34,125 nucleotides of DNA from Minisyncoccota bacterium (GTDB taxonomy: Bacteria; Patescibacteriota; Minisyncoccia; UBA6257; 2-01-FULL-56-20): positions 1 through 34,125 of the forward strand of contig JANWIW010000007.1 in NCBI GenBank assembly GCA_025449695.1. The letters are read 5' to 3'. Shown piece after piece: positions 14,637 through 16,885 of the stretch. Position 1 is the stretch's first letter. Each line of letters opens with the position of its first letter. The notes below the pieces were generated by a model. The model was not told the origin of the DNA. It saw only the letters and a program-made list of their open reading frames with translations, and did not search any database. The translations under genes and the position numbers were made by a program.

Positions 14637-14707
14637 GCGGGTATCGTATATCGGTATTATGCGTCCTTGCCATGGACGAGAGAGGGGTCCGACTCCCCTT
14701 ACCCGCT
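14637..14707 (+). tRNA. tRNA-Gly (GCC)
   Basis: Acceptor GCGGGTA/TACCCGC, anticodon arm CGTCC-TTGCCAT-GGACG, T arm AGGGG-TCCGACT-CCCCT; CCA not encoded. Not represented by any ORF. Confidence 0.93.
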
Positions 14708-14735
14708 CAAAAATAATAGTTATTATTTTTGAGCG
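14704..14735. repeat. Perfect 15-bp palindrome overlapping tRNA-Gly 3' end
   Basis: CGCTCAAAAATAATA-GT-TATTATTTTTGAGCG. Confidence 0.9.
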
Positions 14736-14778
14736 AGGCTCGCCCGTCTCGCCCTTCGGGGCGGACTGGCGGCCCGCT

Positions 14779-14826
14779 CACTAAGAAAATCTTGCCCATG
14801 TATTCATGGCTTAGATTTTCTTAGTG
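14779..14826. repeat. 14-bp perfect inverted repeat
   Basis: CACTAAGAAAATCT (14779-14792) / AGATTTTCTTAGTG (14813-14826). Confidence 0.85.
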
Positions 14827-14831
14827 TCCCT

Positions 14832-14904
14832 CCGAAGCTCGTAGAGCGAAGGGGGACTTCTTTCAGATAGCTGCATACTCGCAGCTTATATTCTCAAGTG
14901 CCCT
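14832..14904 (+). repeat. 73-nt structured element, copy 1 (left of Cys-rich gene)
   Basis: Ungapped alignment with 16779-16851, 14 differences, six of which form three compensatory base-pair changes. Confidence 0.85.
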
Positions 14905-14987
14905 TCCGAAGCCTTGGCGAAGGAGGGCTATAAAAAGAATCAACAATTTGCTGGCGGCCCTCTGGCTAAGAGCCTATACTTAATTCT

Positions 14988-16766
14988 ATTCTCGAAGCCC
15001 AACACAAAACCTGCCAGAATTGCAAAAATAAGTTCCCCCTCGAACCGGATGACTTGGCGTTCTACGAAAAGCTGCAGGTTCCTCTGCCTACTTTTTGCTG
15101 GCTCTGTCGCGCTCAGCGTCGCTTCGCCTTCCGAAATGAACGAGCGCTATTTAAGAGAAAAAGCGACCTTTCGGGCAAGGAAATATTCTCGACCTATCCC
15201 GCATCCGTACCATTTCCGGTCTACACCCAAGAAGAATGGTTCTCCGACTCTTGGGATGCTCTGACATACGGGCAGGAGTACGATTTCTCACGCCCATTCT
15301 TCGAGCAGTTCAAAGCACTTTCCGATAAAGTGCCGAAACCCGCAAAATCAGCAGCCGGATTCTTAAACAATAGCGACTATTCCAACAACGCCGCCGACCT
15401 CAAGAATTGCTATCTTATCTTCAACTCCTCATATGACGAAGATTGCGCTTACGGCAACGCGGTGAATCGTTGCAGCTACTCGTTCGACAACTCTAATATC
15501 AACGTATCGGAATTAAGTTACGAAAATTTCAATTGCTCCCGCTGTAGCCGCACTTTTTTCTCGGTAACTATTACGGAATCCACCGATATTTATTTCTCCA
15601 AGAATCTGCGCGGTTGCCACGACTGCTTCGGCTGCGTCAACCTGAGGAAGAAAAGCTACTATATCTTCAACAAGCCTTATTCCAAAGAGAAATATTTTGA
15701 GGAGCTGGAAAAGTACGACCTCGGCTCTTATGCGGAATTGCAAGGAATCCGAAAAAAGGCAGAGCAATTCTGGCTGCAATTCCCTAATAAGTTCCGGCAG
15801 GACGGCTCACATAGTATGAACGTGAGCGGCGAATACATCTATCATTCCAAAAATGCCCACAAGATTTATCAGGCCATCGGCGCGGAGGACGTGAAATACT
15901 GCCAATACATCAACTACATTCCCATCAAGGATTGCTACGATTTCACCGTCTACGGCGAGAACGCAGAACATTGCTATGAGTGTGCGATGGTGGGAGACAA
16001 ATCCTATAACCTCAAATTCTGCTTGCAATCATACAGCGGTGTGCGGGATTTAGAGTACGCGGAATACTGCAATTCCTCGTCGAATCTCTTCGGTTGCGTG
16101 AGCATGAGAAATAAGGAGTATTGCATTCTGAACAAGCAATATACGGAGAAGGAATACGAGGAACTCGTACCGCGTATCAAGAAGCATATGGACGAGGTGC
16201 CCTACGTTGATAGGGCTGGCCGCGAATATCGCTACGGAGAGTTTTTCCCTGCGGAATTTTCCTATTCCGGCTATAACGAAACTATCGCTCAAGAACATTT
16301 TCCGTTAGCTAAAGAAGAAGCCTTAAAGCAGGGCTACAATTGGCAGGACATTGAGTCCAAACATCATACGACCACGATGCAATTTAGCGCGTTGTCCGAC
16401 AACATCAACGGTGTGGATAACTCAATCTTGGAGGAAATCGTAAGCTGCGAGCATAAAGAACAATGCGACCACGGATGCGCTGGGGCGTTTCGTATTATCC
16501 CACAAGAGTTACAGTTCTATAAGCGCTTCAATCTTGCGTTGCCACGGCTCTGCGTGAACTGCCGCCACAGGGAACGGCTCAAGAAAAGAAATTCGCTGCG
16601 GATATGGCAACGACAATGCGATTGCGATTACCAAAAGTATCAGAATATCATTCAGCATGGCCACCATCCCGAAGGAAGGTGTCCTAATCAATTTGAGACC
16701 ACCTACTCCACTGACCGGCCGGAAATCGTCTACTGCGAGCAGTGCTATCAGGCAGAAGTTGTGTAA
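14988..16766 (+). CDS. Large Cys-rich zinc-ribbon-like protein, function unknown
   Basis: ORF from 15054 extends in frame upstream to ...LEAQHKTCQNCKNKFPLEPDDLAFYEKL, restoring a CxxC that pairs with CWLC; no ATG/GTG/TTG before it. ATT at 14988 lies 7 nt after TATACT. Many CxxC motifs. Confidence 0.75.
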   Translation: MLEAQHKTCQNCKNKFPLEPDDLAFYEKLQVPLPTFCWLCRAQRRFAFRNERALFKRKSDLSGKEIFSTYPASVPFPVYTQEEWFSDSWDALTYGQEYDFSRPFFEQFKALSDKVPKPAKSAAGFLNNSDYSNNAADLKNCYLIFNSSYDEDCAYGNAVNRCSYSFDNSNINVSELSYENFNCSRCSRTFFSVTITESTDIYFSKNLRGCHDCFGCVNLRKKSYYIFNKPYSKEKYFEELEKYDLGSYAELQGIRKKAEQFWLQFPNKFRQDGSHSMNVSGEYIYHSKNAHKIYQAIGAEDVKYCQYINYIPIKDCYDFTVYGENAEHCYECAMVGDKSYNLKFCLQSYSGVRDLEYAEYCNSSSNLFGCVSMRNKEYCILNKQYTEKEYEELVPRIKKHMDEVPYVDRAGREYRYGEFFPAEFSYSGYNETIAQEHFPLAKEEALKQGYNWQDIESKHHTTTMQFSALSDNINGVDNSILEEIVSCEHKEQCDHGCAGAFRIIPQELQFYKRFNLALPRLCVNCRHRERLKKRNSLRIWQRQCDCDYQKYQNIIQHGHHPEGRCPNQFETTYSTDRPEIVYCEQCYQAEVV

Positions 16767-16778
16767 TGAAAAGTAATT

Positions 16779-16851
16779 CCGAAGCTCGTAGAGCGAAGGG
16801 GGACGTCCTTCAGAGAGTCACGTACCCGTGACTTAACTTCTCAAATGCCCT
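16779..16851 (+). repeat. 73-nt structured element, copy 2 (right of Cys-rich gene)
   Basis: See 14832-14904. Confidence 0.85.
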
Positions 16852-16861
16852 ACCCCGCACA

Positions 16862-16885
16862 AAAGCCCTCGTTGAAGAGGGCTTT
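16862..16885. terminator. Bidirectional intrinsic terminator
   Basis: AAAGCCCTC-gttgaa-GAGGGCTTT. Confidence 0.8.

Follow-up and report, generated by a model that had tools for sequence, protein, structure and literature searches.

Organization of the locus

The window, by which we mean the whole stretch of 34,125 nucleotides of a Minisyncoccota bacterium analysed here, carries on its forward strand a tRNA-Gly(GCC) gene (14637 to 14708; ARAGORN; RF00005, 48.1 bits) and, downstream of it, a gene for a cysteine-rich protein which belongs to a multicopy family of Patescibacteria (14988 to 16766). Flush with the 3′ end of the tRNA gene lies a terminator-like hairpin on the same strand with the arms CGCTCAAAAATAATA and TATTATTTTTGAGCG (14704 to 14735), and this hairpin together with the segment from 14736 to 14778 is common to two paralogous tRNA-Gly loci (L149 and L161). 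In all three tRNA-Gly trailers (14704 to 14778 in the window, L149 and L161), CCCGCTCA or a near copy of it recurs past a hairpin, and at L149 the trailer unit of the tRNA-Gly is repeated in tandem.

Behind the tRNA gene, four forward-strand hairpins of two types form the array A0-B0-A1-B1 in the 3′ flank of the tRNA gene, and the first of two similar 73-nt segments lies within this array. The A-type hairpin A0 (14779 to 14826) was detected as an inverted repeat with the arms CACTAAGAAAATCT and AGATTTTCTTAGTG and is matched by the covariance model R2 described below (14780 to 14857, 75.7 bits); its inner stem was terminator-like in a consensus scan. The second A-type hairpin, A1 (14858 to 14899), has the stem AGCTGC/GCAGCT, is matched by R2 as well (14860 to 14928, 62.8 bits) and also scored terminator-like in the consensus scan. 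The B-type hairpins B0 (14826 to 14857, GTCCCTCCGAAGCTCGTAGAGCGAAGGGGGAC) and B1 (14898 to 14928, GTGCCCTTCCGAAGCCTTGGCGAAGGAGGGC) were assigned by folding and by model R2. Copy 1 of the 73-nt segment (14832 to 14904, forward strand), delimited by alignment and repeat search, opens with the right part of B0 and consists of B0 minus its left arm, A1 and the start of B1.

The cysteine-rich gene, whose frame is open from 14970, has no ATG; it starts with TTG at 15054 or, probably, with ATT at 14988. Comparison with related loci places a putative −10 element, TATACT, at 14975 to 14980 (forward strand), 7 nt before this ATT, and the TATACT-N6-start spacing of the window recurs at L035, L040, L043 and L161. 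Copy 2 of the 73-nt segment (16779 to 16851, forward strand) is placed after the stop codon of the gene with no tRNA nearby; according to the alignment it consists of B2 without its left arm, A2 and the start of a degenerate B3, and its region gives an R2 match of 28.8 bits (16808 to 16882). Just past copy 2, folding indicated an ordinary terminator-like hairpin, AAAGCCCTC-GTTGAA-GAGGGCTTT (16862 to 16885, no strand assigned).

The two 73-nt copies

A sequence-only reading of this DNA had described copies 1 and 2 as a direct pair with covarying hairpins on both sides of the gene, and had proposed that they are either a structured RNA or the ends of a mobile cassette. The pair itself is real: the copies align without gaps and are identical at 59 of 73 positions, and a repeat search lengthens them to 77 nt with 81% identity (14831 to 14907 and 16778 to 16854). 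In a BLAST search of the whole genome (983,527 bases), copy 1 found copy 2 with an E-value of 7e-14 and otherwise merely matches of 14 to 15 nt, so that the pair is not due to chance. The hairpins AGCTGC-ATACTC-GCAGCT in copy 1 and AGTCACG-TACC-CGTGACT in copy 2 do occupy identical alignment columns, and three inner stem pairs are altered on both sides (C-G to T-A, T-A to C-G and G-C to A-T), as had been noted. All six stem changes are transitions. Since two-sided transitions preserve the pairing automatically, this pair taken alone is weak evidence of selection, and the stronger evidence comes from an alignment of 37 copies of the wider repeat family.

While the direct pair was confirmed, its boundaries are not the natural ends of an element. 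The 73-mer (B, A and the start of B) represents an arbitrary register within a palindromic repeat composed of two hairpins, hereafter the A/B repeat. No further full-length copy of the 73-mer was detected by BLAST in 38 genomes of the family, and none in plasmids; the A/B family was revealed solely by covariance models.

Structure and covariation of the A/B repeat

A first covariance model (R1), built from the two 73-nt copies, found weaker relatives in the same genome and in others, and a second model (R2) was built from eight units and applied with a threshold of E ≤ 0.01. In the model matches, a long A hairpin with a B hairpin behind it emerged as the natural unit. The A hairpin has the outer arms CAYTAGAA and TTCTTRTG (for example CATTAGAAGTTG with CAACTCTTATG, or CACTTAGAAAATC with GATTTTCAAGTG), a TTA/TTA internal loop, a variable inner stem and a loop near GTANYC, often similar to GTAATC. 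The consensus of the B hairpin is GYCCCTCC-GAA-GC..GC-GAA-GGGGRC, read in the matches as GTCCCTCC-GAA-GC..GC-GAA-GGGGGAC.

Among 37 units, changes on both sides were found in 22 of the 25 modelled base pairs, and the covariation score was 0.318, compared with 0.119 for shuffled and at most 0.094 for slid alignments; the percentage of paired positions is biased upward by an alignment that follows the model structure. The covariation shows that the hairpins are maintained, and it does not distinguish between maintenance at the RNA and at the DNA level. Of the earlier proposal, the part concerning a repeated, structured element holds, with the fold conserved while the stem sequences vary, whereas the part concerning the ends of a cassette around the cysteine-rich gene does not. 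The models of Rfam 15 gave no match for the repeat.

Distribution of the A/B repeat

Model R2 gave 37 matches in the genome of the window and matches in 23 of the 38 family genomes. Eleven of the 37 begin between −2 and +1 nt from the 3′ end of a tRNA gene on the same strand, where 0.003 would be expected, and the tRNAs concerned are those for Ala, Leu, Glu, Ile, Met, Arg, Gln, Tyr, Pro, Val and Thr; the other 31 of the 42 tRNA genes have no flush match. Two more matches sit between the 3′ end of the 23S rRNA gene and the 5S rRNA gene. Abutment to tRNA genes also occurs in other genera (Arg at L075, Ile at L082, Pro at L083 and Gln at L089) and in another family of the order (Pro at L167), and in genome G021 both R2 matches abut tRNAs.

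A folding-energy test of the hairpins behind tRNA genes separated them poorly from random positions and was replaced by a model-independent search for exact arms. Perfect 8-nt hairpin arms began no more than 7 nt from the 3′ end in 9 of 37 tRNAs of the same genome and in 8 of 29 tRNAs of relatives, and at 1.1% of random positions, a control which spans more than intergenic DNA.

About one third to one half of the R2 matches lie away from stable-RNA genes, and many of these are weak and comprise mainly the B part. B units are also found without A units, and their orientation and context vary. Some 3′ arms of the repeat are T-rich. A clear U-tract is often missing from the A hairpins, so that a function in termination is only putative.

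These observations bear on the view that the element is purely a structured RNA, such as a family of small RNAs with a duplicate on either side of the gene. An RNA of this kind would fit the strong covariation and the partial conservation of the loop. However, no Rfam family matches, B units exist independently of A units in varying orientation and context, and the position flush with tRNA genes is more in keeping with a trailer than with a free-standing RNA, and we therefore regard this view as unlikely.

The cysteine-rich gene family and the cassette hypothesis

The cysteine-rich gene has a lower GC content than its surroundings, as had been stated (0.47 versus 0.60 to 0.66 nearby), and the lowest of its family in this genome. 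The family has at least 23 members there (25 matches), which make up about 4% of a 1-Mb genome, and in relatives it ranges from 0 to 27 copies, often in tandem. All named records of the family come from Patescibacteria or unassigned bacterial metagenome-assembled genomes, and no relatives were found in viral contigs. Pfam and NCBIfam gave no match for the protein, and PADLOC and PHROGs yielded nothing usable for it or for the repeat. An AlphaFold model (pLDDT 86) appears to consist of cysteine-rich ends flanking a β-helix-like middle part, and a fold search with it returned no significant solved relative and a weak resemblance to left-handed β-helices.

An ATG is missing in three paralogues (the window gene, L035 and L040), which have the motif TATACT-N6/7-ATT-CYC-G in common, and other paralogues have TATACT-N6-ATG. 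The spacing of TATACT suggests leaderless mRNAs, with AUU as the probable start codon in the former.

The two copies were proposed to form the hairpin ends, in subterminal position, of an IS200/IS605-like element that is non-autonomous and carries the cysteine-rich gene as cargo, and their direct orientation around the gene with the lowest GC content of its family in this genome speaks for such a cassette. Nevertheless, this gene is the only one of at least 23 paralogues in its genome that is bracketed, at least 22 others being without the pair. The element is not tied to the gene family either, for only 2 of 34 R2 matches outside the window lie within 500 bp of a family member (upstream of L035 and L043), and the repeat is found far from the family. 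Across genomes the two occur separately, the repeat without the gene in G002, G024 and G029 and the gene without the repeat in G025, G030, G031 and G035. Furthermore, the first part of the trailer is present at the two paralogous tRNA-Gly loci without the gene, and no match to the Y1 transposase domain (Y1_Tnp, PF01797) was obtained in the genome of the window (G000, 92.7% complete). With the paralogues unbracketed, repeat and gene occurring separately, tRNA-Gly trailers lacking the gene and no Y1 transposase, the cassette hypothesis fails; we consider it extremely improbable and have rejected the 73-mers as cassette ends in favour of a dispersed A/B repeat.

By and large the matches are thus not tied to the gene family. 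A partial exception is found in other Patescibacteria at L254 and L287, where a B-type hairpin separates the true gene end from a second copy of the C-terminal codons. At L040, L043 and L045 in the genome of the window, a different hairpin separates the gene end from a second copy of the tail. Such second tails were counted at 7 of 163 ends of cysteine-rich genes, with 0.2 expected from shuffled sequences. The last or first codons recur past a palindrome at the 3′ ends of L040, L043, L045, L031, L254 and L287 and at the 5′ ends of L006 and L030. In addition, palindromes of a type common in the Candidate Phyla Radiation (CPR), CCTTCGACAAGCTCAGG, apparently lie in frame near the starts of the cysteine-rich genes L036, L048 and L026; Rickettsia palindromic elements likewise insert in frame within genes.

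GIY-YIG endonuclease genes at palindromes and stable-RNA genes

Twelve GIY-YIG genes were located in the genome of the window, 11 of them small, and by inspection each of the 11 lies in a palindrome, in a direct repeat, or inside or beside a stable-RNA gene. Four are inside long inverted repeats (L305, L312, L315 and L319), one is inside a 23-nt direct repeat (L318), four are beside tRNA genes (L299, L320, L321 and L322), one is inside the 16S rRNA gene (L301) and one lies about 200 nt behind the tmRNA gene (L308). Four genomes together have 24 small GIY-YIG genes, 12 of which have a tRNA gene no more than about 140 nt away; inverted repeats of at least 11 nt bracket 10 of the 24, compared with 1% of random segments, and direct repeats of at least 11 nt bracket 8, compared with 4%. 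At the tRNA-Gly locus L149, a GIY-YIG ORF takes the place of the left half of the A hairpin, with flanks on its left (GGCCCGCTCACT) and right (TTTTCTTAGTGTCC) that are both common to the window. At five loci (L321, L322, L300, L304 and L306), a 5′ fragment of a tRNA gene, a palindrome and the ORF are followed by a regenerated intact tRNA gene. At L296, L300, L304, L321 and L322, the GIY-YIG ORF runs into the tRNA gene downstream, with its stop codon in the 5′ part of that gene.

The A/B palindromes might accordingly be targets of GIY-YIG elements, or relatives of them without an ORF; these elements would enter palindromes and stable-RNA genes and leave behind a gene end that has been regenerated. 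The placement of all 11 small genes, the frequent bracketing by repeats and the replacement of half an A hairpin at L149 argue for such a tie, as does the order gene end, hairpin and second gene end, seen both at tRNA-Gly and at the 7 of 163 cysteine-rich gene ends. On the other hand, the window is without a GIY-YIG gene, the best-bracketed GIY-YIG genes are found in palindromes of other families, neither transposition nor excision nor a polymorphic site was seen, and the genes and palindromes may merely share landing sites. We regard the tie as possible, if somewhat doubtful.

Discussion

Copies of the A/B repeat are scattered over the genome with covarying stems; they often stand exactly at tRNA 3′ ends, and also between the 23S and 5S rRNA genes. 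We consider it likely that the A and B units are 3′-trailer hairpins of stable-RNA genes which also spread as miniature palindromic repeats. At the RNA level, the A hairpin would serve as trailer or terminator of stable-RNA transcripts, and at the DNA level, the units would spread as miniature palindromes into gene ends. The covariation of the stems could be kept up by selection for the hairpin, by template-switch correction of the palindrome arms, or by both. The cysteine-rich gene would then sit between two units without being their cargo. Against this reading count the matches away from stable-RNA genes, the 31 tRNA genes without a flush match, the frequent lack of a clear U-tract, and copy 2, which has no tRNA nearby and precedes an ordinary terminator-like hairpin. 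What appeared to be a gene cassette thereby becomes part of a pattern spanning the genome: in very reduced genomes, a covarying repeat of two hairpins is positioned exactly at the ends of tRNAs.

Dispersed palindromic repeats are an already known kind of element. In the literature, of which our coverage is incomplete, we found no account of a RAYT-free palindrome family flush with tRNA 3′ ends in Patescibacteria. The REP and BIME repeats and REPtrons are palindromes tagged with GTAG or CGTC (PMC3733652). Like REP/BIME, the A/B repeat comprises short, dispersed and composite extragenic palindromes near gene 3′ ends, with proposed roles in termination and RNA stability. Membership in the RAYT type could be argued from extragenic palindromes of 30 to 80 nt, in places with tandem units, but no Y1 transposase is detectable in the genome of the window (of which about 7% is missing) and no GTAG or CGTC tag by the published definition (PMC3733652) stands at the unit end. 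The ends of the consensus are CAYTAGAA and GYCCC, and GTAG occurs solely inside some B units. Lacking end tag and RAYT, standing exactly at tRNA 3′ ends and having hypervariable covarying stems, the A/B units differ from REP/BIME, and an assignment to this type is very unlikely.

Intrinsic terminators and 3′ trailers of bacterial tRNA genes resemble the A/B units in having a hairpin directly behind the gene and, in some cases, T-rich 3′ arms. Unlike these terminators, the A/B units belong to a repeat family whose internal loops and ends are conserved and which includes a second GC-rich hairpin; they also occur away from RNA genes and have no regular U-tract.

Palindromes inserted in genes or at gene ends are represented by the Rickettsia palindromic elements and the double-hairpin elements of Allomyces mitochondria, and in Allomyces an endonuclease element supplies a new C-terminus of a gene. 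These elements belong to lineages different from that of the A/B repeat and are likened to it by description, not by sequence.

TIGR-Tas arrays, which have been reported from CPR bacteria, consist of variable palindromes in tandem beside genes for Nop-domain proteins (PMC12045711). The A/B repeat shares with them the CPR host and variable palindromes in an array (PMC12045711); going by the published description, a TIGR array was set aside, as the A/B units are mostly dispersed singly behind tRNA genes.

The insertions in rRNA genes of CPR bacteria described in 2024 include GIY-YIG proteins in insertions that fit no intron class, and many short ORF-less insertions of unknown kind (PMC11270868). 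In common with our observations are the occurrence in Patescibacteria, the GIY-YIG ORFs and the short ORF-less insertions; the difference is that rRNA genes are the subject of that study, the main text of which does not contain the words "tRNA" or "palindromic" (PMC11270868). We tentatively raise the idea that in this group of Patescibacteria GIY-YIG genes and transposase-free palindromes belong to a single mobile system that targets stable-RNA genes and the ends of genes, where a palindrome and a regenerated gene end would stay behind; the A/B hairpins behind tRNA genes, including those around the cysteine-rich gene, might be its ORF-less form. Such a shared system, of which no movement was seen here, would account for two kinds of insertion in CPR rRNA genes, the short ORF-less ones and those with GIY-YIG proteins that fit no intron class, and, if the link holds, it would suggest a route by which palindromic repeats spread without a transposase.
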